A DNA stretch of 64,000 bases from Halobacillus sp. Marseille-P3879. GTDB taxonomy: Bacteria > Bacillota > Bacilli > Bacillales > Halobacillaceae. The translations under genes were made by a program, and so were the position numbers. Below the pieces are notes generated by a model. That model saw nothing but the letters and a program-made list of their open reading frames with translations, made no database searches and had not been told where the DNA came from. Location: contig NZ_OESS01000001.1 of the NCBI RefSeq assembly GCF_900240285.1, forward strand, positions 1,054,001 through 1,118,000. The letters are read 5' to 3'. Positions 36,415 to 61,470 of the stretch are shown here, piece after piece (position 1 is the stretch's first letter; the number at the start of each line of letters is the position of its first letter).

Positions 36415-36484
36415 ATGTACCGGGTACATAGAAAGTGAAAGAGTGTACCCGGTACACCAAAGCTGATACAGTGTACCTGGTACC
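36415..36484. repeat. three copies of the GTACC-N-GGTAC palindrome
   Basis: Cores are GTACCGGGTAC at 36417-36427, GTACCCGGTAC at 36445-36455 and GTACCTGGTAC at 36473-36483. They are spaced exactly 28 bp apart and usually extended by TG/CA flanks. They fill the gap between the B12 operon and the M20 gene. Confidence 0.85.
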
Positions 36485-37657: not shown

Positions 37658-37698
37658 GTGTACCTGGTACCACACAATTTATTTGGTGTACCGGGTAC
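37656..37698. repeat. two copies of the GTACC-N-GGTAC palindrome
   Basis: GTACCTGGTAC lies at 37660-37670, with extended TTGTG/CACAA arms to 37656 and 37677, and GTACCGGGTAC at 37688-37698. The spacing is again 28 bp. Confidence 0.85.
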
Positions 37699-51528: not shown

Positions 51529-53188
51529 ATGGATTTTATTAAGTTGTTTCATTTTAACGATGTATCTTCTTCCTTACTTTACCCTCGGAGGAGATACACA
51601 CATCCGGGTGCACGATAACTTAGATTCTAATATAGTGTGGTACAAACTGCTTGCAGAAAGTGGTCATTTTTTTGCAGGGCCTGGAGCGACTCTTCCGAAT
51701 GTCATTAATGGTCTTCCAAGAAGTGCCCTGCCTTCAGCGTTTGATGCGGTGGCATGGCTGTATGTATGGTTAGAACCTTTCACAGCTTATACAATTAGTC
51801 AGACGATCATGCGTTTTGCAGCGTTTTTTGGGATGTATTTATTGTTGACCCGTTTTGTTATTCCAGACTGGAAAAAGGGCTGGCTGACTGCAGGCTGTTC
51901 TTTAGCTTTTGCGATGCTGCCTTTCTGGCCTTCAGGCGTATTAACGATCGCCGGCTTGCCTTTAGCCTTTTATTTATTTTTACAGATACGCCAGCAGGGT
52001 AAAGAGACTCCGTGGTACATATGGATGACTCTATTCGTCGTCCCGTTTCTATCTAATTTTATTCTATCGTTTATCTTCTTTCTTGGAATAATGGGGGTTT
52101 TCTGGCTTGTTGAATGGATAGGGAAAAAGCATTTTAACCTGCCGTTTTTTATTGCCATAAGCGGGATGACCCTCATTTATTTATTGAAAAACTATATGCT
52201 CCTTTATACGATGTTTATCGATTCTTCCTTTACTTCTCACAGGGAGGAAAATGAGCTGGGTCACAAGGATCTGACGGGAGCGCTCGATCTTTTTGTTGAC
52301 AATTTTCTTAATGGTCATACCCATGACTTGGCTGTGCACAATTCAATTGTGCTGTCTGTAATTATTGCTGCGGTGTTTATCGCAATCTTCCGCGGTGATT
52401 ATCCAACCCGTTTGGTGCTGCTCTTTGCTGCCACTCCTGTTCTTTCTTTATGGTATGCGTTTTGGTATTGGGAAGGCTGGAGGCCGCTAAAAGACAGCAT
52501 TGATTTGCTGAACACCTTTAACTTTGCCCGTATTCACTTTTTCGATCCAATGATTTGGTATCTCTGTTTTGCACTGGCATTAGTCATAATCGTAAAGCGA
52601 GTAAAAGGTGGAGTGCTGCTCGCTTTCCTTCTACTGTCCGCTCAGTGCTGGAATGTTTTTCAATTGAATGAGGAAAGTAAATACAGCGAAATCAACACTC
52701 CAACTTTTAATGAGTTTTATTCGGTAGACTTATTTGAAGAGATTAAGAATTACATCGGTGAGGACCCTTCTTCTTATCGTATAATTAGTGTGGCGATGCA
52801 CCCGACGATCGCGCAGTATAATGGGTTTTATACGTTGGACACATACAATAATACGTATCCTCTGGAATACAAACACAAATTCCGTGAAATCATTGCTGGC
52901 GAATTGGAGAAGAGTCCGGTTTTACGAAATTATTATGACACGTGGGGCGGCAGAGCTTATGTGTATTCAAGTGAGCTCGGAAAGGAATATTTGTTCAGCA
53001 AAAGGAGTGACAAGACTATCGAAGAACTCTCCATAAATACCGAAGCTTTAAGCGAACTCGGTGGCAAGTACGTAATCTCAGCCCTCCCAATAGAAAACCA
53101 CAAAGACATCGGACTACACCACCAACAAACATTCCAAAACGACCACTCCCCATGGAAGATACACCTGTACCAGGTACAGAACAGTTAA
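51491..53188 (+). CDS. polytopic membrane protein, probable GT-C glycosyltransferase (YfhO-like)
   Basis: A 565-residue protein with about twelve membrane segments and a long extracytoplasmic C-terminal part. Near its start HIRVHDNLDSNIVWYKLL carries acidic residues placed as in GT-C enzymes. It resembles DUF6044/YfhO-type proteins that transfer lipid-linked sugars to teichoic acids. ATG 51491 follows AGAGG. The last residues (LYQVQNS) are encoded by a copy of the palindromic repeat, so the original C-terminus may have been altered. Confidence 0.72.
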   Translation: MSLSIFNYFIKYKWILLSCFILTMYLLPYFTLGGDTHIRVHDNLDSNIVWYKLLAESGHFFAGPGATLPNVINGLPRSALPSAFDAVAWLYVWLEPFTAYTISQTIMRFAAFFGMYLLLTRFVIPDWKKGWLTAGCSLAFAMLPFWPSGVLTIAGLPLAFYLFLQIRQQGKETPWYIWMTLFVVPFLSNFILSFIFFLGIMGVFWLVEWIGKKHFNLPFFIAISGMTLIYLLKNYMLLYTMFIDSSFTSHREENELGHKDLTGALDLFVDNFLNGHTHDLAVHNSIVLSVIIAAVFIAIFRGDYPTRLVLLFAATPVLSLWYAFWYWEGWRPLKDSIDLLNTFNFARIHFFDPMIWYLCFALALVIIVKRVKGGVLLAFLLLSAQCWNVFQLNEESKYSEINTPTFNEFYSVDLFEEIKNYIGEDPSSYRIISVAMHPTIAQYNGFYTLDTYNNTYPLEYKHKFREIIAGELEKSPVLRNYYDTWGGRAYVYSSELGKEYLFSKRSDKTIEELSINTEALSELGGKYVISALPIENHKDIGLHHQQTFQNDHSPWKIHLYQVQNS

Positions 53189-53299
53189 CTTTATGTACCG
53201 GGTACACAGAGAAAAAAGAAAAAAAGAATTGTGTACCGGGTACAGAGTTGGTTTTTTTCTGTACCGGGTACACAGTGGTAAAGTTGTGGTACCATGTAC
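53167..53299. repeat. cluster of five GTACC-N-GGTAC palindromes with purine tract
   Basis: Cores are at 53167-53177 (centre A), 53195-53205 (G), 53233-53243 (G), 53261-53271 (G) and a degenerate GTACCATGTAC at 53289-53299. Steps are 28, 38, 28 and 28 bp. The 38-bp step contains the tract GAGAAAAAAGAAAAAAAG (53209-53226). The first copy overlaps the end of the upstream gene. Confidence 0.88.
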
Positions 53300-53475
53300 A
53301 CTGCTCATAATGTCTAATGGGTGGTGTTGTTTTTTTTACGTTGTGTCCAATTTAATAGTAGAGGATGTCATCTTGTGTCTAATGAAATAATAGGAGATTA
53401 ATTGTACAATTAATTTAGAAAGTTCTGATAATATATAATTTATATTTAAGAAATTAGTGTAAAGGAGATGACAAC

Positions 53476-53754
53476 GTGCCCCCTAAAGAAGATTATCGTT
53501 TTAAAATTGCTAATCGAGAAGCTTTGATTGGGGTCGGGTTAGCAGTAATTAATTTTGTTTGGTGGTTTGGTTTTGCTTATGGTCTCGGCAGCAGGCCTCC
53601 TGAAGATTACAGCTACATACTCGGGCTCCCTTCGTGGTTTTTTTACAGTTGTATTGGCGGGTTTATCTTAATTGCTGCTCTTGTGACATTTGTTGTCAAA
53701 GTCTTTTTTGTAGAAGTGCCGCTGGATTATGAACAGGATGGTGATCGCTCATGA
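53476..53754 (+). CDS. YhdT-family small membrane subunit
   Basis: A 92-residue protein with two hydrophobic segments, similar to YhdT, the small protein often encoded before PanF. It starts at GTG 53476 behind AAAGGAG and overlaps the symporter gene by four bases. It probably assists or stabilises the pantothenate symporter. It opens a six-gene operon that ends at 59728. Confidence 0.82.
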   Translation: MPPKEDYRFKIANREALIGVGLAVINFVWWFGFAYGLGSRPPEDYSYILGLPSWFFYSCIGGFILIAALVTFVVKVFFVEVPLDYEQDGDRS

Positions 53755-55220
53755 ATATGGCTGTCATCATACCTTTAATTACTTTTTTAGTCCTTATTTT
53801 TGCCGTAGGATTTATAGCGAGTCGTTCATTGACGAAGTCTGAGAGCAATTTTATGCAGGATTATTTTCTCGGCGGTCGTCAACTGGGTGGATTTATTCTA
53901 GCCATGACGATGATTGCTACATATGGAAGTGCCAGTAGTTTCATTGGGGGACCGGGGGTTGCTTACAATGAAGGCTTTGGGTGGGTTCTCCTTGCCATGT
54001 CCCAAGTCGCTTCCGGCTATTTTGTGCTCATGATTCTAGGGAAAAAATTCGCAATAATGGCGAGAAGATATAACGCTGTGACACTGACGGATTACTTAAA
54101 AGGCCGTTATCAGAGCAAGTGGGTGGTATTAATTGCTGCATTTAGTATTATTATTTTCTTATTTTCAGCGATGGCCGCTCAGTGGGTAGGCGGGGCTCGT
54201 TTAATTGAATCATTGACAGGGCTCACTTACACATCTGCTCTTTTCATTTTTGCTTTATCTGTTCTTATTTATGTTGTTATTGGTGGGTTTAAGGCTGTTG
54301 CTTTGACCGATATGATCCAGGGTGTCGTCATGGTTGGAGGCACGCTGATTTTATTGGTCGCTACGATTATAGCGGGCGGCGGGATAACGAATATTATGGC
54401 TGATTTGACTGCTGAAAATCCCTCACTAATCACACCGTTTGGAGCGGAGGAAAGCCTTACACCATCCTATGTATCATCTTTTTGGATTTTAGTAGGGGTT
54501 GCCGTGATAGGTTTACCTCAAGTAACTGTTCGTGCCATGTCTTATAAAAGTTCGCGCGCCATGCACCGCGCCCTCATTATCGGCACGTTTGTCGTAGGTT
54601 TTATTATGTTAAACATGCATTTAATCGGGGTGTTTGCACGCCCGATCTTACCTGGAATTGAAGTAGGAGACAGGGTTATGCCACTGATTGCTCTAGAAGT
54701 GCTGCCGCCGTGGGTGGCCGGAATTGTGCTGGCTGCTCCGATGGCCGCGATTATGTCGACGGTTGATTCCCTGCTGCTTCTCGTCAGTTCTTCTGTCGTG
54801 AAGGATATTTACGTCAATTACGTAAAACCCGATGCCTCATATAAAAGGATTAAGAGGATGAGCTTTGGGGTGACTGCGATCCTAGGAGTTCTCGTTTTTC
54901 TCATGGCTCTTAATCCACCTGACTTATTAATATGGCTCAATTTGTTTGCTTTTGGCGGCTTAGAGGCAACTTTCATTTGGCCTATAGTCCTGGGGCTTTA
55001 TTGGAAGAGAGGGAACAAATACGGAGCTCTTTCTTCAATGATAGTAGGTATAGGCACATACATTATCATCGATGTGTTTTACACGTCTCTATTTGGCTTG
55101 CACAGTGTTGTTTTTCCGGTAATTCTATCCTTTATTGCTTACGTAACGATTAGTCTGGCAACGAAAAATCTAGCGTTAAATGATTATAGTGAACAGCAAA
55201 AGCTGGAAGGGAGTATGTAA
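53751..55220 (+). CDS. panF: sodium/pantothenate symporter (PanF family)
   Basis: A 489-residue sodium:solute symporter with about thirteen membrane segments. Landmarks are NFMQDYFLGGRQLGGFILAM, MIATYGSASSFIGGPG and AAPMAAIMSTVDSLLLLVSS, as in PanF. It is expected to take up pantothenate with Na+. The linked YhdT-like gene supports this substrate over other SSS solutes. Genes for an amidase and oxidoreductases follow at once, suggesting that the vitamin is imported as a carbon and nitrogen source. Confidence 0.88.
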   Translation: MNMAVIIPLITFLVLIFAVGFIASRSLTKSESNFMQDYFLGGRQLGGFILAMTMIATYGSASSFIGGPGVAYNEGFGWVLLAMSQVASGYFVLMILGKKFAIMARRYNAVTLTDYLKGRYQSKWVVLIAAFSIIIFLFSAMAAQWVGGARLIESLTGLTYTSALFIFALSVLIYVVIGGFKAVALTDMIQGVVMVGGTLILLVATIIAGGGITNIMADLTAENPSLITPFGAEESLTPSYVSSFWILVGVAVIGLPQVTVRAMSYKSSRAMHRALIIGTFVVGFIMLNMHLIGVFARPILPGIEVGDRVMPLIALEVLPPWVAGIVLAAPMAAIMSTVDSLLLLVSSSVVKDIYVNYVKPDASYKRIKRMSFGVTAILGVLVFLMALNPPDLLIWLNLFAFGGLEATFIWPIVLGLYWKRGNKYGALSSMIVGIGTYIIIDVFYTSLFGLHSVVFPVILSFIAYVTISLATKNLALNDYSEQQKLEGSM

Positions 55221-56447
55221 ATGGAAACGAAGATAAACGCACAACAAGTAAGAGATCGTGAGGCTGTTATTTCATTGACACAGAAGCTTGTAAGGATCCC
55301 GAGCGTCTACCGGCCGGGGGTGGAAGATGGTAACGAAGAGAAAGCTGCTCATTATGTTGCTGATTATTTAAAAGCCATGGGCATTGAAGTATTTATAGAA
55401 GAAGTTGAACCTGGACGCCCGAACGTAATTGGCATCATCGACTCAGGAAAGCCCGGTAAAACGCTGCTGCTTGAAGGTCATACGGATGTCGTAACTGAAG
55501 GGGATCACAATTCGTGGAAGTATGAGCCATTTGGTGCCGAAATTGTTGGTGACAGAATGTATGGCAGGGGCACCAATGACACGAAAGGAAACTTAGCCTG
55601 TATGATCACCGCTGCCAGCTCGATCTTACAAGATAAGGAACCTTTTAACGGCAAAATCATTTTATGTATACCGTGTGATGAAGAAGGTATGATGATAGGC
55701 ATTAAGCATTTTATCAAAAATGGCTGGGCTGAAGACGTCGATGGAGCAATCATTTGCGAGCCCGAAGAAAATCAGGTATGTATCAGCCAACGAGGAGCAA
55801 TGAGGCTTGAACTCATTACTTATGGGAAAATGGCTCACGGGGCAATATCGTGGAGCGGCATCAATCCCAATTTGCGAATGGCCAAAGTTATAGTGGAATT
55901 GGAAAAACTTGAACGAAAAGAGCAAGAACGTTTAGGAAAACATCCAACGTTAGGCTGGCCGAGCATTACCCCGACAATCCTTAAATCACCGGTAAAAGGG
56001 GAGGCGCAAATCAATGTGATTCCTGACCAGTGTATGACAACACTCGATATTCGTACCGTACCCGGGCAGGATCACGAGGAACTCAAACAAGAAATCAGAA
56101 ATATTTTTTCTAGACTATCAGAGGAGGACGCTGATTTTAAAGCTGATTTTACAGTGATTGAAAACCGTCCATGGACAGAAACGGACCGGGAAGAAGCGAT
56201 CGTGAAGTCTGTAGCGCAGGCAGTTAAACAAGTCACTAAAGAAGATCCGATTTATAATGGTGTCCCGGGAGCTACCGATGGCACGTTTCTTCATATTGCA
56301 GGTATTCCTATCGTTACGATCGGCGCTGGGGACCGAGATATCCCTCACCAAATCAATGAATATGTAGATGTCAATGAATTGGCGGTTACCACACAAATCT
56401 ATCGACAGGCCTGCTTACATTTTTTAAATGATAAGGGTGAGAAGTAA
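55221..56447 (+). CDS. M20 deacylase (ArgE/DapE family), candidate pantothenase
   Basis: A 408-residue metallo-amidohydrolase with metal ligands in LLEGHTDVV, GRGTNDTKGNLACM, PCDEEGMMIG and CEPEEN, and the late IPIVTIGAGD region. The family cleaves amide bonds next to a carboxylate. Pantothenate (pantoyl-beta-alanine) has exactly such a bond, and the preceding gene is a pantothenate symporter, so hydrolysis to pantoate and beta-alanine is the best guess. The start follows GGAAGGGAG and abuts the panF stop. The family call is firm; the pantothenase role is inference. Confidence 0.85.
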   Translation: METKINAQQVRDREAVISLTQKLVRIPSVYRPGVEDGNEEKAAHYVADYLKAMGIEVFIEEVEPGRPNVIGIIDSGKPGKTLLLEGHTDVVTEGDHNSWKYEPFGAEIVGDRMYGRGTNDTKGNLACMITAASSILQDKEPFNGKIILCIPCDEEGMMIGIKHFIKNGWAEDVDGAIICEPEENQVCISQRGAMRLELITYGKMAHGAISWSGINPNLRMAKVIVELEKLERKEQERLGKHPTLGWPSITPTILKSPVKGEAQINVIPDQCMTTLDIRTVPGQDHEELKQEIRNIFSRLSEEDADFKADFTVIENRPWTETDREEAIVKSVAQAVKQVTKEDPIYNGVPGATDGTFLHIAGIPIVTIGAGDRDIPHQINEYVDVNELAVTTQIYRQACLHFLNDKGEK

Positions 56448-57520
56448 TGCATAGAATAGCGGTCATCCCTGGAGATGGAATTGGTCTTGAAGTTGTCCGG
56501 GAAGCCCTTGCCACCTTAGAGCTGTTTGTTAATAATGATACCGATTTAACCATGGAATGGGACGTTTTTGACTGGGGATCTGAGTATTATTTGGAACACG
56601 GCAAAATGATGCCGGAAAACAGCCTGGAAGTGTTGAAGTCATTTGACGCGATTTTGTTCGGCGCGATAGGAGATGCAAGAGTACCTGACGATGTTACTAT
56701 TTGGGAACTCATAATGCCGATACGCAAAGAATTCCAGCAATACATCAATTACCGGCCTGCAAAGCACCTTAAAGGGATTCAATCCCCGATCCAAAATAAT
56801 AAAGATATTGATTTCGTCATTATCCGTGAAAATGCAGAAGGTGAATATTCCAACATGGGTGGTCACCTATACAAAAATACTAAACAAGAAGTAGCGGTTC
56901 AAAATACAGTGATGACAAGAGAAGGCTGCGAAAAAGTCGCCCGCTATGCGTTTAATTATGCCCGGGAAAATAACTACAAATTGGTCACGAGTGCGACAAA
57001 ATCAAATGCGATTGTTCATACGATGAAGCTGTGGGACCATTGTTTAATGAACGTTTCAGAGAGTTATCCGGATGTGGCTTTTCATTCAGTTTACATCGAT
57101 GCGCTTGCGGCTTCCATGGTTCAGCATCCGGAAAAATTCGGTGTCGTGGTTGCATCCAATTTGTTTGGAGACATTTTATCGGACTTAGGTTCCGCTGTTG
57201 TTGGGGGTCTCGGTGTTTCTCCTTCAGCAAACATAAATCCTGAGGGGGCTTATCCTTCCATGTTTGAGCCGGTTCATGGATCCGCACCGGATATCGCAGG
57301 AAAAGGGATTGCCAATCCGATTGCACAAATTTGGTCACTGGCTCTATTATTTGACCATTTAGGGTACTCGAAGCAAGCAGGACTTATCCTTTCGTCAATT
57401 GAAAGTACGGTTCGCGATCAAGTGGTAACACCAGATCTTGGCGGAAACAACTCTACTGAAGAAGTGGGAAATGCCATTAGGGGACGAGTTGCAGCTGCTC
57501 TTCAAGGAGGCAAAATATGA
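56447..57520 (+). CDS. isopropylmalate/tartrate-dehydrogenase-family enzyme, candidate dimethylmalate dehydrogenase
   Basis: A 357-residue NAD-dependent beta-decarboxylating dehydrogenase. It opens IAVIPGDGIGLEVVREAL and has the family signature region NLFGDILSDLGSAVVGGLGV and VHGSAPDIAGKGIANPIAQI. It is closer in feel to TtuC/YeaU D-malate and tartrate enzymes than to LeuB. In this operon it would oxidise and decarboxylate 3,3-dimethyl-D-malate to 2-oxoisovalerate. Start and stop overlap its neighbours, showing tight coupling. Confidence 0.85.
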   Translation: MHRIAVIPGDGIGLEVVREALATLELFVNNDTDLTMEWDVFDWGSEYYLEHGKMMPENSLEVLKSFDAILFGAIGDARVPDDVTIWELIMPIRKEFQQYINYRPAKHLKGIQSPIQNNKDIDFVIIRENAEGEYSNMGGHLYKNTKQEVAVQNTVMTREGCEKVARYAFNYARENNYKLVTSATKSNAIVHTMKLWDHCLMNVSESYPDVAFHSVYIDALAASMVQHPEKFGVVVASNLFGDILSDLGSAVVGGLGVSPSANINPEGAYPSMFEPVHGSAPDIAGKGIANPIAQIWSLALLFDHLGYSKQAGLILSSIESTVRDQVVTPDLGGNNSTEEVGNAIRGRVAAALQGGKI

Positions 57521-58263
57521 GCGTAAAAAACAAAACAATCATTGTAACAGGAGCTAATGGAGGAATGGGGCTTGCAGTTGTTAACCAACTCCTCGATGAA
57601 GGGGCGCAAATTATTGGTTGTGATTTAAATAGAGATCAGTTGGACAATATTCAGAATGATCGACTCATCGTCTATGAAGGCAGCTTACTGGATGAAAGTT
57701 TTGTACGTAAGGTGTTTAAAGAAACTAGTGATCATTTTGGCACCATTGACGGGCTTGTAAACACAGTCGGCATTGCACAGCAGGCCGCCCCCATTGAGCA
57801 AGTATCGTTAGAATCATGGGACAATCTTATCAATATCAATATGAAGCTGATATTTTTAACATGCAGGGAAGCAGCTGTCTATATGAAAGCAAGACAAAAA
57901 GGTTCAATCGTCAACGTCGCATCTATTTCTGCTGTGCGCCCGCGTCCCGGACTTCAGGCTTACGTAGCTTCTAAAGGAGGGGCTGAAAGCTTTTCGAGAG
58001 CGCTAGCCATCGAATTAGCTGAGCATCAGGTGAGAGTGAATACAGTTCACCCTGGCCCGTGTGATACAAGCATGCTTGAGAAGTTTGCTTCTGAAGGAGC
58101 GGATATGCAGGAAGTGAAGGATGATATATTTAAGAAAAGCATACCGCTGGGAAAACTTCTTACCCCGCAAAACGTTGCATCGTCGATAGTTTTTCTTTTA
58201 TCAGATCAGGCTGAGATGGTTACAGGAGCAACGATAAATGTAGATGGCGGAAGAGGGATTTAA
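57517..58263 (+). CDS. short-chain dehydrogenase, candidate pantoate 4-dehydrogenase
   Basis: A 248-residue classical SDR with TGANGGMGLAVV at the NAD site, NTVG, catalytic Ser in NVASISAVRP and YVASKGG as YxxxK, then HPGPCDT. It oxidises an alcohol with NAD(P). In the proposed route it would turn the primary alcohol of pantoate into an aldehyde. AAGGAGG precedes the ATG, which overlaps the previous stop. Confidence 0.85.
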   Translation: MSVKNKTIIVTGANGGMGLAVVNQLLDEGAQIIGCDLNRDQLDNIQNDRLIVYEGSLLDESFVRKVFKETSDHFGTIDGLVNTVGIAQQAAPIEQVSLESWDNLININMKLIFLTCREAAVYMKARQKGSIVNVASISAVRPRPGLQAYVASKGGAESFSRALAIELAEHQVRVNTVHPGPCDTSMLEKFASEGADMQEVKDDIFKKSIPLGKLLTPQNVASSIVFLLSDQAEMVTGATINVDGGRGI

Positions 58264-58285
58264 CTATAGAGGAGGCGACGATGGT

Positions 58286-59728
58286 ATGGACAAACTTTAT
58301 ATGTATATTAACGGAGAATGGCAGGAAAGTGCGTCTGGTGAGCGGATGGAATACTTTAATCCAGCGGACCAAATGACACTAGGAACGATCCCAAGGGGAA
58401 ATAAAGTTGATGTGGATCATGCCGTTTCAGCCGCTAAGACGACATTTGAAGGCAGCGTTTGGAAGGAATTCAAACCACATGAACGCGGCAGTATATTGTT
58501 CGAAGTCGCACGCAGAATTAGAGAAAATAAAAATGAATTGGCCCGCCTTGAAACAATTGATGTAGGGAAGCCGTTGGCTCAATCAATTGCTGATGTCGAA
58601 GCAGCGGCCCGCTATTTTGAGTTTTATGGAGGGGCAGCTGACAAATTAATGGGTGAAACAATTCCCATTGAAGATGGAATGATCGATTTTACCGTAAGAG
58701 AACCGATTGGCATCACCGCACATATTATCCCCTGGAATTACCCGATCCAAATTACATCAAGAAGTACAGCCGCAGCAATTGCCACCGGAAATACAGTTGT
58801 CGTTAAAGCAGCAGAACAAACGCCGTTAACCACAATGAAAATCGCTGAATACTTTCACGATACGGATTTACCTGAAGGTGTTTTTAATGTGGTAACTGGT
58901 CTGGGTAATGAGGCTGGAGCCCGGCTGTCGAACCACCCCGACGTTAATCATATTACATTTACCGGCTCCGTTCCTACAGGCATTAAAATAATGAAAGCAG
59001 CTGCGGATCATGTAATACCTGTTACTCTTGAATTAGGCGGCAAATCACCTAATATCGTCTTTGCAGATTGTGATGAAGAAGAAACCTTGAATGGAGTCAT
59101 AAGATCAATTATCCAAAATGCGGGACAAACGTGTTCAGCCGGATCAAGACTTTTAATAGAGGGTGCATATAAAGATGAATTTCTTCTCTTATTAAAAGAC
59201 AGGCTTGAAGCGTTGACTATAGGACCAGGAGAAGAAGAACATAACATCGGTCCTATCTTGTCTAAAGAACAATATGAAAAAGTCATTTCTTATGTTCATC
59301 AAGGAAGAAAAGAAGGAGAGATCGTGACCGGAGGAAATAGAGTGCACATTGAAGGGTATGAAGAAGGATTTTATATACAACCTACCGTGATTGATAAGTT
59401 AACCCATGATAGTGAAGTTGCACAGGAAGAAATTTTCGGCCCAGTGTTAACAGTGTTCTCCTTTGATACAGAAAAAGAAGCTGTTCAGTTAGCCAATGGT
59501 ACGAACTATGGTCTTGTAACAGGAATCTGGACTTCTCATTTAGGGAAAGCCCATCGACTTGCAGACCAAATACGCGCAGGGCAGGTTTTTGTCAATAACT
59601 ACGGTGCTGGAGGCGGAATTCAAATGCCATTTGGCGGATACAAACGAAGCGGATTCGGCAGAGAAAAAGGATTTGAGGCACTGAAAAACTATACCCAACT
59701 TAAAAATGTAGCTATTAAGTATAGATAA
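58286..59728 (+). CDS. aldehyde dehydrogenase, candidate dehydropantoate dehydrogenase
   Basis: This 480-residue ALDH has the catalytic Cys in NAGQTCSAGSR and Glu in TLELGGKSPNIVF, with the usual NAD-binding IIPWNYPIQI. It is related to betaine- and gamma-aminobutyraldehyde dehydrogenases. ATG 58286 follows GAGGAGG; the frame opens at 58244, inside the previous gene. In the proposed pathway it oxidises aldopantoate to 3,3-dimethylmalate. It is the last gene before a repeat cluster. Confidence 0.88.
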   Translation: MDKLYMYINGEWQESASGERMEYFNPADQMTLGTIPRGNKVDVDHAVSAAKTTFEGSVWKEFKPHERGSILFEVARRIRENKNELARLETIDVGKPLAQSIADVEAAARYFEFYGGAADKLMGETIPIEDGMIDFTVREPIGITAHIIPWNYPIQITSRSTAAAIATGNTVVVKAAEQTPLTTMKIAEYFHDTDLPEGVFNVVTGLGNEAGARLSNHPDVNHITFTGSVPTGIKIMKAAADHVIPVTLELGGKSPNIVFADCDEEETLNGVIRSIIQNAGQTCSAGSRLLIEGAYKDEFLLLLKDRLEALTIGPGEEEHNIGPILSKEQYEKVISYVHQGRKEGEIVTGGNRVHIEGYEEGFYIQPTVIDKLTHDSEVAQEEIFGPVLTVFSFDTEKEAVQLANGTNYGLVTGIWTSHLGKAHRLADQIRAGQVFVNNYGAGGGIQMPFGGYKRSGFGREKGFEALKNYTQLKNVAIKYR

Positions 59729-59742
59729 AAGGGGATTAATGT

Positions 59743-59819
59743 GTACCCGGTACTCAGAGAAAAAAGAAAAAAAGTTTTTGGTACCAGGTACATGTCCATT
59801 CATTTTCTGTACCTGGTAC
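59743..59819. repeat. three GTACC-N-GGTAC palindromes with purine tract
   Basis: Cores are at 59743-59753 (centre C), 59781-59791 (A) and 59809-59819 (T), with the same 38 and 28 bp steps as in the 53.2 kb cluster. The tract GAGAAAAAAGAAAAAAAG lies at 59757-59774. Confidence 0.88.
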
Positions 59820-59828
59820 AATATATCA

Positions 59829-60062
59829 TTAAAAAGTTGGCAGGTTATCTAGGTTATCTAGGTTATTTTCAGGATCTCCATCTGCATTCCCGCGAATCAC
59901 AGGTCGTCCATTCCTCGCTTTACCCACATTAGCTCCTTGAATGGTTCCATTCTCAACAGCAGCAATTGCTTCCTCATAACTCAATTCTTTCCCACTTGAT
60001 GTCTGAAAGCTGACAATATCACCATCATCGTTTTTACGAACACGCGCAAAGAATTCTGCCAT
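59829..60062 (-). CDS. DUF3892-family small protein
   Basis: A 77-residue protein beginning MAEFFARVRKNDDGDIVSFQ, with the segment LSYEEAIAAVENGTIQGANVG and a GRPVIRGNADG stretch typical of DUF3892. The function of the family is unknown. GAAGGAGGG precedes the ATG. The C-terminus ends in a short tandem repeat, NLDNLDNLPTF. It is the only minus-strand gene in the last 24 kb and is flanked by repeat clusters on both sides. Confidence 0.8.
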   Translation of the reverse strand: MAEFFARVRKNDDGDIVSFQTSSGKELSYEEAIAAVENGTIQGANVGKARNGRPVIRGNADGDPENNLDNLDNLPTF

Positions 60063-60128
60063 AAATGTCCCTCCTTCTATATATAAATAGTATGTTGAAG
60101 AAAAAGGAATCTGATACAGTTATTTTTT

Positions 60129-60233
60129 GTACCGGGTACACAAAATGATAGGGTCTGTACCTGGTACCGAGAGAAAAAAGAAAAAAAGAAATGTGTACCG
60201 GGTACACGGTAAGCGACTTTCTGTACCCGGTAC
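60129..60233. repeat. four GTACC-N-GGTAC palindromes with purine tract
   Basis: Cores are at 60129-60139 (centre G), 60157-60167 (T), 60195-60205 (G) and 60223-60233 (C), at steps of 28, 38 and 28 bp. The purine tract lies at 60171-60188, again inside the 38-bp step. Confidence 0.88.
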
Positions 60234-60243
60234 CTGTAATATT

Positions 60244-60395
60244 TACTGAATTTTACTAATTAAATTTAATGACAATCTTACTATCCTTAGTCAAATGTGT
60301 ATATAGCGACGTTTATTTTTCTGAAAAATTTAAAAATTTTATTGAAAGCGTTATCTTTGTTTGCTAATATTATCAATATAGTACTGAATTTTACT
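60244..60395. promoter_or_regulatory. promoter region of the LacI gene with 14-bp direct repeat
   Basis: TACTGAATTTTACT occurs exactly at 60244-60257 and 60382-60395. A similar ATTTTACTAAC lies near 61660, before the binding-protein gene. These may be operators of the LacI regulator. Confidence 0.4.
60342..60356 (+). promoter_or_regulatory. cre site
   Basis: TTGAAAGCGTTATCT matches the cre consensus WTGNAANCGNWNNCW at every defined position, 73 bases before the LacI-type gene. CcpA control is likely. Confidence 0.7.
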
Positions 60396-60429
60396 GAAAT
60401 TTTATTGAAAATAAGTGAGGGGAAACAAG

Positions 60430-61470
60430 ATGACCACGATCAAAGAAATTGCTTCGAAATCGAATTTTTCCAACACTACGGTCTCGAGGGTTTTAAATAA
60501 CGATAATACGTTGTCGGTTGCTATGGAAACCCGGCAGAGAATACTGGAAGTTGCAAAAGAATTAGGTTACAAGACTCTTCAAGAACGAAAAAAAGAAAAT
60601 AAGACTCCTACCCGTGTAGAGTCTGCAAAAATTGGTATCTTGCTTTGTCATACCGTAGAAGAAGAGCTCAATGACGCATATTTCCTTTCTATTCGACAGG
60701 GAATCGAAAAAGAATGCCGAGAAAGGGGTATTACTGCTACAGAATTGGTTCGTTTTACTAGTTTGGGTTCAGAACAAATCAGCAAAGATATCAGCCATCT
60801 AATTATAGTCGGCAGAATTAACACTCAAATTCTCGATCACATTACTGAAGACCAGGATCAGCTTGAGAATATTGTCTATATTAATCATACCGTTGATTCG
60901 GACAAGTATGATTCAATAGTTATTGACTTTGATAAAGCAACCCGGCGTGCATTGGATCATTTACTGGACTGTGGATACAAGCGAATCGGCTTTATAGGCG
61001 GTCAAGAGAGAGAGCATTTTTACGATTCTAAGATAGACTTCGAAGATGATAGACAAGTCTCGTTTAAAAAGTTTATGGAAGAAAAAAGTTTATTTGATCC
61101 GGACGTTTTTTATACAGGAGAATTCACGATGGCTAACGGTTACGAACTTATGAAAAAAGCAATTTCTAAAGGTAACCTTCCTGAAGCGTTTTTTGCAGCT
61201 AGTGATGCCATGGCCATCGGAGCAATGAGGGCGTTGCAGGAGAATCAATACAATGTTCCTAAAGATGTGTCGATTATTGGTTTTAACGACATTGAATTGG
61301 CACAATTCGCGAGTCCCCCTCTGACTACAGTTAAAGTTCAAACAGAAGAGATGGGGAGGTTGGGGGTAAAGCTGATGATTGATCGTTTAGAAGGGAGAGA
61401 GATTCCGGTTAAAGTAACAGTGCCAACTGAGTTAGTCATTAGAGAAAGCTGTACAGCTAAGATGGGATAA
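60430..61470 (+). CDS. LacI/GalR-family transcriptional regulator
   Basis: A 346-residue repressor with the N-terminal helix-turn-helix TTIKEIASKSNFSNTTVSRV and hinge, and a periplasmic-binding-like sensor domain (RALDHLLDCGYKRIGFIGG, FAASDAMAIGAMRAL, GFNDIELAQFASPPLTTV). It should control the sugar ABC operon that follows. ATG 60430 follows GAGGGG; the frame opens at 60415. It resembles GalR/MsmR-type regulators of galactosides or related sugars. Confidence 0.9.
   Translation: MTTIKEIASKSNFSNTTVSRVLNNDNTLSVAMETRQRILEVAKELGYKTLQERKKENKTPTRVESAKIGILLCHTVEEELNDAYFLSIRQGIEKECRERGITATELVRFTSLGSEQISKDISHLIIVGRINTQILDHITEDQDQLENIVYINHTVDSDKYDSIVIDFDKATRRALDHLLDCGYKRIGFIGGQEREHFYDSKIDFEDDRQVSFKKFMEEKSLFDPDVFYTGEFTMANGYELMKKAISKGNLPEAFFAASDAMAIGAMRALQENQYNVPKDVSIIGFNDIELAQFASPPLTTVKVQTEEMGRLGVKLMIDRLEGREIPVKVTVPTELVIRESCTAKMG

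Follow-up and report, generated by a model that had tools for sequence, protein, structure and literature searches.

A candidate operon for pantothenate import and degradation in Halobacillus sp. Marseille-P3879 and its variants in other Bacillota

Results

The present study analyzes a cluster of six genes in a 64,000-nucleotide stretch of the genome of Halobacillus sp. Marseille-P3879 (contig NZ_OESS01000001.1, positions 1,054,001 to 1,118,000 of the forward strand), hereafter the window, together with the gene neighborhoods of related genes in other genomes. Six intact, co-directional open reading frames (ORFs) are tightly packed at 53476-59728 on the plus strand (Table 1) and encode, in order, a YhdT-like small membrane protein, the sodium/pantothenate symporter PanF, a metallo-amidohydrolase of the M20 family, a member of the isopropylmalate dehydrogenase (IPMDH) family, a short-chain dehydrogenase/reductase (SDR) and an aldehyde dehydrogenase (ALDH). 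The original prediction, which described six overlapping or abutting genes of these classes, was accurate in its coordinates, and matches to Pfam and NCBIfam profiles uphold the family of each product. YhdT and PanF overlap by 4 bases, PanF and M20 abut, M20 and IPMDH overlap by 1 base, and IPMDH and SDR overlap by 4 bases. In its longest form the ALDH ORF shares 20 bases with the SDR gene; its true start is likely an internal ATG, because the homologous ALDH of another locus (L036; L and G numbers are our labels for loci and genomes) begins 19 bases beyond the end of the SDR. A chance arrangement is excluded because the same gene set recurs around orthologous M20 genes in dozens of genomes. 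Promoter prediction over 53150-60450 returned 20 sites, which is not above the background of shuffled sequence (mean 16.1, standard deviation 4.3).

Table 1. Features of the operon and repeats in the window, with the evidence for each (profile scores in bits).
Feature	Position	Strand	Evidence or remark
Ribosome-binding site AAGGAG	53462..53467	+	Read in the sequence, upstream of the GTG start of the first gene
YhdT/DUF997 small membrane protein, PanF partner	53476..53754	+	GTG start; Pfam DUF997 109.1 vs cut-off 26.3
PanF sodium/pantothenate symporter	53751..55220	+	TIGR02119 726.6 vs cut-off 328.05
M20 metallo-amidohydrolase, proposed pantothenase	55221..56447	+	TIGR01910 ArgE/DapE family 270.7 vs cut-off 217.6; residues; context
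IPMDH/tartrate-dehydrogenase-family enzyme, proposed 3,3-dimethylmalate dehydrogenase (decarboxylating)	56447..57520	+	Pfam Iso_dh 307.9; loop WELIMPIR
SDR, proposed pantoate 4-dehydrogenase	57517..58263	+	Pfam adh_short_C2 190.8; step inferred from class and context
ALDH, proposed 4-dehydropantoate dehydrogenase	58244..59728, likely true start 58286	+	Pfam Aldedh 546.2
GTACCNGGTAC repeat sites	53167-53271, 59743-59819, 60129-60233, also 36417-36483, 37660-37698, 46307		

Conservation of the cluster was assessed in a scan of named genomes, one per species, from which the best 80 of 113 M20 relatives were kept as the named loci. Neighbors were annotated by comparison with reference proteins and counted within 9 kb on the same strand, at identity thresholds set by the analyst (PanF 45%, EcfS and Dpp 60%, others likewise); several of these loci stop at contig ends, and gene absences are thus upper bounds. 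The closest named M20 relatives were those of Halobacillus andaensis (89%) and Halobacillus sp. A5 (86%). Among 101 related genomes 19 carried an orthologue of M20 at E below 1e-190, the genome ranked after them reaching 2.6e-58, and in a separate sample of the class M20 was found at 1e-100 in 45 of 398 genomes. IPMDH, SDR and an ALDH stood together with M20 in 44 of the 80 loci, 24 of which held the full set with YhdT-PanF, so that the predicted union of classes for all four reactions of pantothenate breakdown, and its conservation with panF elsewhere, were both borne out. In two further loci, L213 (G050) and L214 (G095), one operon encoded the A, A', T and S proteins of an energy-coupling factor (ECF) transporter, a P1 peptidase, M20, IPMDH, SDR and ALDH. 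The M20 of one contig labelled Pseudomonas sp. ISL-84 (L047) falls inside Cytobacillus and has the same neighbors; this contig probably belongs to a mislabelled or contaminated genome. Genes for PucR, GntR, IclR-type or sigma-54 activators adjoin many clusters, and such regulator genes are common next to catabolic operons. The sigma-54-type activator (Sigma54_activat, HTH_8; e.g. L089 2284-3582) adjoins many ECF-type or IPMDH clusters, which suggests sigma-54 control.

The residues that we take to be catalytic were retained in all four enzymes: H87, D89, D120, E154, E155, E180 and H376 of M20 are conserved at 98% or above (94 orthologue rows, some identical), the window IPMDH keeps the equivalents of R99, R109, R138, Y145, K195, D227, D251 and D255 of E. 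coli LeuB, the SDR has its S/Y/K motifs and the ALDH its Cys/Glu motifs. The window M20 shares subfamily TIGR01910 with the ArgE/DapE deacylases but falls under each DapE and ArgE equivalog cut-off shown, and indeed under all other curated cut-offs among 25 of 57 families, YgeY included. At 222.6 vs 215, the SDR exceeded the cut-off of NF005559, a broad NCBIfam subfamily named "glucose 1-dehydrogenase"; the ALDH fell under every curated cut-off among 25 of 43 families. In a quick M20 tree, where long branches were flagged, five clostridial rows formed one group (SH-aLRT 97) beside the 88 rows of the Bacilli clade (96), with the Bacilli-class row G120 just outside both and plasmid-borne relatives from Thermus, Deinococcus and Nonomuraea further out. 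A scan of viral contigs with the clostridial M20 gave no match. On Deinococcus aetherius plasmid pDAETH-2 (L160/L178), a 42% identical M20 gene precedes preA and hydA in the same orientation and is a candidate M20-type N-carbamoyl-beta-alanine hydrolase of pyrimidine catabolism.

The importer beside M20 was not constant. The 80 loci divide into 36 with YhdT-PanF, 26 with a PanT-like ECF S component, 12 with a Dpp-type binding protein and 6 with none of these; no locus combined PanF with the ECF S component (0/80), and YhdT accompanied PanF in 36 of 36 loci. The window YhdT exceeded the cut-off of the broader DUF997 family and fell under that of the YhdT equivalog NF007918 (39.9 vs 107). E. coli has the same yhdT-panF pair, in the same order and of the same families, but there accBC and prmA flank it and degradative genes are absent. 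ECF-PanT transporters of Lactobacillus are vitamin importers, and differ from the variant clusters in that the latter have A, A', T and S inside the catabolic operon. The replacement S component belongs to Pfam ECF_trnsprt, and a profile of 12 such components, run against the entire PDB with matches accepted up to E = 1, matched just 4rfs chain S (3.8e-12) and 6zg3 chain C (2e-6), both described as PanT pantothenate S components in a passage of PMC7755397. The S component for pantothenate uptake in B. subtilis is named PanU in an excerpt of PMC11487621. That two unrelated pantothenate importers appear to interchange beside one hydrolase is strong evidence, at the level of gene context, for pantothenate as the substrate. 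A gene of the P1 family (Peptidase S58) was present in 37 of the 80 loci, comprising 24 of 26 with ECF, 12 of 12 with Dpp and the clostridial L114, and was never found with PanF (e.g. L089 6966-7925). In Halobacillus dabanensis (L110 6509-7982) and likewise in G040, PanF is split into two overlapping ORFs by a frameshift or an assembly error.

Five clostridial genomes had an M20 with 56-60% identity to that of the window: L111 (labelled Firmicutes), L112 (Sinanaerobacter chloroacetimidivorans), L114 (labelled Eubacteriales), G627 and G641, the last two found among 391 genomes of the class of L112, of which three, its own included, carry M20. PanB and PanE, which interconvert 2-ketoisovalerate, ketopantoate and pantoate, adjoin M20 in all five; PanB was over its cut-off in each, and PanE was over TIGR00745 in three and recognized in the other two by 52-54% identity to L112. 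No IPMDH-family match at 1e-80 occurred in any of the five. L112 encodes, in this order, Fhs-like, FchA-like, FolD-like, a formate/nitrite-family channel, an IclR-type regulator, PanB, PanE and M20, followed by a P-loop protein, a VorB/A/C-type ketoacid:ferredoxin oxidoreductase, YhdT and PanF. Its VorB (498.9 vs 399) and channel (246.7 vs 232.3) exceed their cut-offs, the FchA- and FolD-like proteins and the beta subunit fall under the curated cut-offs shown, and the first gene is one that we take to be Fhs from its sequence. L111 has the segment of this cluster bounded by the channel and the oxidoreductase, and the Fhs-like gene is also present in L114, such that two of the five genomes (L111 and L112) add both a ketoacid:ferredoxin oxidoreductase and a formate-type channel. 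PanB was present in three copies in G641, two each in G480 and G482, and one each in G481 and G627. The extra copies make a purely biosynthetic role of the linked PanB unlikely in the first three genomes; in the two with a single copy the linked PanB may be purely biosynthetic.

The IPMDH-family enzyme of the clusters could be told apart from its paralogues by the substrate loop, which reads W[EDQ][LFM][IL][ML]PIR and, in the window, WELIMPIR. The motif was present in 61 of 77 distinct rows; the 16 without it were E. coli LeuB and DmlA, L116-L118 of the window's own genome, L202-L211 (ten relatives without an M20 orthologue) and L054, whose IPMDH match stands about 6.6 kb from its M20. An IPMDH match at 1e-80 was found in 42 of the 101 relatives, and the motif count covers the best matches of 30, the other 12 having 47-55% identity. 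A motif-bearing IPMDH was present in 20 of these 30, including all 19 genomes with M20; the twentieth, G022 (L212 4919-12419), has the IPMDH-SDR-ALDH trio with a TRAP transporter (DctP, DctQ, DctM) and an FAD-linked oxidase and lacks an M20 orthologue. Action of the trio on free pantoate would predict such an arrangement, and the locus is a candidate for pantoate uptake and degradation, the TRAP importer of this one genome perhaps serving for free pantoate where the trio occurs without M20. No IPMDH was found within 9 kb in 31 of the 80 named loci, 28 of which are not PanB/PanE loci. When 25 of those 28 Bacilli genomes (all except L047, L109 and L113) were tested for IPMDH elsewhere, 19 had a motif-bearing IPMDH away from M20, and for 18 of these the retrieved region also held an ALDH or SDR. 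L053 has an IPMDH fragment of 65% identity at a contig end, outside the motif reading.

The closest structure to the window enzyme is the tartrate/D-malate-type dehydrogenase 3flk, with which it shares the catalytic residues. Both 3flk and E. coli DmlA differ from it in having the loop WGSLLKFR, and the window enzyme departs from the WGxLxxxR signature. It is distinct from the LeuB-like L116 and the paralogues L117 and L118 of its own genome, two own-genome paralogues carrying WGLRLAIC and NGLLLKIR at the loop, and cluster enzymes are one residue shorter than most paralogues just before the motif. Tartrate or D-malate catabolism was considered and set aside, the loop differing from those of E. 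coli DmlA, 3flk and the two paralogues and this role leaving PanF, PanT, PanB and PanE unexplained. In the IPMDH tree the motif rows fell on one side of a branch with support 71, the motif columns having been left in, which is weak evidence for a single origin.

Genes that could dispose of beta-alanine were linked to some clusters. A class III aminotransferase was near M20 in 10 of the 80 loci and a CoA-acylating semialdehyde dehydrogenase in 6 (in L042, 604.1 vs a cut-off of 448.5); such beta-alanine-type genes occur near clusters L042, L049, L052, L078, L086 and L214, and in L214 both stand divergently beside the operon. The window's own genome has a homologue of the aminotransferase (59%) and three of the semialdehyde dehydrogenase (59-60%), all unlinked to the operon. 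It also carries a panB-panC pair, from which it probably makes its own pantothenate.

Two further patterns were observed beside the clusters. In the window, the palindromic repeat GTACCNGGTAC occurs 17 times against 0.01 expected from shuffles, and groups of it flank the operon on both sides. A 106-nt unit is present in three copies with 64-100% identity, and the repeat may be a dispersed repetitive element. Beside the cluster in L044, L050, L061-L064, L068, L069, L072 and L108 stands a second gene group, with an SSS symporter and Amidohydro_3; several of these loci also hold a protein that we take to be C45-like and an M20 carbamoylase-like gene.

Discussion

Patterns detected are consistent with an operon that imports pantothenate (vitamin B5) and degrades it as a nutrient, a reading to which we give a probability of about 0.83. 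Gene content, its conservation and co-occurrence across genomes, the exchange of transporters and the PanB/PanE context of M20 are direct observations, and PanF, the PanT-like S component and PanB/PanE beside M20 support the pantothenate substrate that had been proposed from the window alone. PanF with YhdT would take up pantothenate with sodium, and M20 would hydrolyze its amide bond, releasing D-pantoate and beta-alanine. The SDR would then oxidize the C4 alcohol of pantoate to the aldehyde, the ALDH would convert that aldehyde (4-dehydropantoate) to 3,3-dimethylmalate, and the IPMDH-family enzyme would decarboxylate the latter oxidatively to 2-ketoisovalerate, which would enter valine and branched-chain metabolism. 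For beta-alanine the probable exit would be by a class III aminotransferase together with a CoA-acylating semialdehyde dehydrogenase, both encoded at other sites of the genome. We infer all substrates and the step-by-step assignment, and the order of SDR, ALDH and IPMDH is assigned by enzyme class.

In clostridia the fate of pantoate would be different. PanE and then PanB might run in reverse, a presumed direction, from pantoate to 2-ketoisovalerate and methylene-tetrahydrofolate. In L112 the 2-ketoisovalerate could pass through the ferredoxin oxidoreductase and the one-carbon unit could be taken to formate by the FolD-, FchA- and Fhs-like enzymes and leave through the formate/nitrite-family channel, and both branches would yield energy; the presence of oxidoreductase and channel suggests an alternative fermentative route in clostridia. 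It is fairly likely, with less assurance than the operon reading itself, that Bacillota share one pantothenase, the M20 enzyme, feeding two routes, SDR-ALDH-IPMDH in aerobic Bacilli and reversed PanE/PanB in Clostridia.

Several points weigh against pantothenate catabolism by the operon or limit it. The roles of its enzymes are predictions from genes and context. The window IPMDH scored over the tartrate-dehydrogenase cut-off TIGR02089 (488.2 vs 470.4), with the second such cut-off, NF006048, not reached (478.1 vs 501), and a strict motif-bearing IPMDH was missing from 6 of the 25 Bacilli genomes tested for one elsewhere (L053, L057, L072, L087, L097 and L103). Among clusters the SDR varies (about 35-79% identity) and the ALDH belongs to two different subfamilies (ALDH, ALDH2), both being less constant than M20. 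PanF at 1e-80 occurs in 60 of the 101 relatives, many without M20, and therefore PanF alone is not evidence of breakdown; the operon PanF, the sole match at 1e-80 in its genome, may also serve ordinary vitamin uptake. The P1/S58 peptidase of the ECF and Dpp versions has no role in the proposed scheme and perhaps acts on pantetheine-derived or beta-alanyl compounds. Lastly, distant M20 relatives (about 40% identity) adjoin pyrimidine or other beta-alanine-type genes, and the wider family may cleave other N-acyl-beta-alanines, the window clade being its pantothenate-specific member.

An alternative explanation could be salvage, in which M20 cuts pantothenate mainly to recover beta-alanine and pantoate and balance coenzyme A precursors, with SDR, ALDH and IPMDH removing excess pantoate. 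Prototrophic bacteria are reported, in part of PMC10393543, to cleave pantothenate and reuse the beta-alanine by way of an unknown enzyme, but the dehydrogenase trio would destroy the pantoate skeleton, the clusters bring their own importer and in some cases beta-alanine-type catabolic genes, and catabolic-type regulators stand beside many of them; we regard salvage as unlikely. Slightly more doubtful still is that the cluster degrades some other N-acyl amino acid or peptide-like compound, PanF having drifted and the IPMDH being a D-malate or tartrate dehydrogenase. This would account for the TIGR02089 score and for a Dpp-type peptide transporter in place of PanF in 12 of the 80 loci, and it is generally known that SSS transporters switch substrate easily. 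It would not account for PanF, the PanT-like S component and PanB/PanE beside M20, three unrelated kinds of evidence that meet on pantothenate or pantoate, nor for a loop motif unlike those of E. coli DmlA and the paralogues read. That M20 is an N-carbamoyl-beta-alanine hydrolase of pyrimidine catabolism within an otherwise unrelated cluster is very improbable, since for all the Deinococcus plasmid arrangement, a PreA-like gene end upstream of the L112 cluster and a HydA-type match in clostridial locus L166, a PreA-type match occurred solely in L112 and a HydA-type match in none of the 80 named loci, and pyrimidine catabolism leaves PanF, PanT-like ECF, PanB, PanE, SDR, ALDH and IPMDH unexplained. 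This activity, rejected for the clade of the window M20, may occur in the 40% identical relatives.

Pantothenate catabolism by the operon would place genes beside a chemistry long described. Bacterial degradation of pantothenate was worked out biochemically in the 1960s by Snell and co-workers as pantothenase (EC 3.5.1.22), pantoate 4-dehydrogenase (1.1.1.106), dehydropantoate dehydrogenase (1.2.1.33) and dimethylmalate dehydrogenase (1.1.1.84), the early work reportedly being that of Goodhue and Snell in 1966 and Nurmikko in 1966. The window operon has the same four reaction classes plus an importer. It differs in that its genes are proposed in Bacilli, whereas the classic enzymes came from pseudomonads and no sequence was found for them, and in that the pantothenase of P. 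fluorescens works through an acyl-enzyme whereas M20 is a metallo-hydrolase. The P. fluorescens enzyme is mentioned in an excerpt of PMC10393543, which in 2023 called the pantothenase protein "currently unknown", and EC 1.1.1.84 and 1.2.1.33 appear as validated orphan activities in the portion consulted of a 2007 survey (PMC1940265). In full-text literature searches on the pathway and its enzymes, genes for the four enzymes were not named among the matches listed (titles and starts of abstracts, subscription journals and patents lying outside), and passages of PMC10393543, PMC11487621 and PMC9426600 contain no gene assignment for them. The gene assignments and the PanE/PanB variant thus appear new.

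If the reading is true, it supplies candidate genes for pantothenase and three further steps, and by its route L112 would ferment vitamin B5 taken up through an importer of its own. For genomes and communities, M20 offers a candidate marker of vitamin B5 consumers, which on the evidence of PanF alone would pass for vitamin scavengers, and the clostridial variant suggests that a PanB or PanE annotation does not in every case denote vitamin synthesis. Genome-based predictions of vitamin exchange would be affected on both counts.

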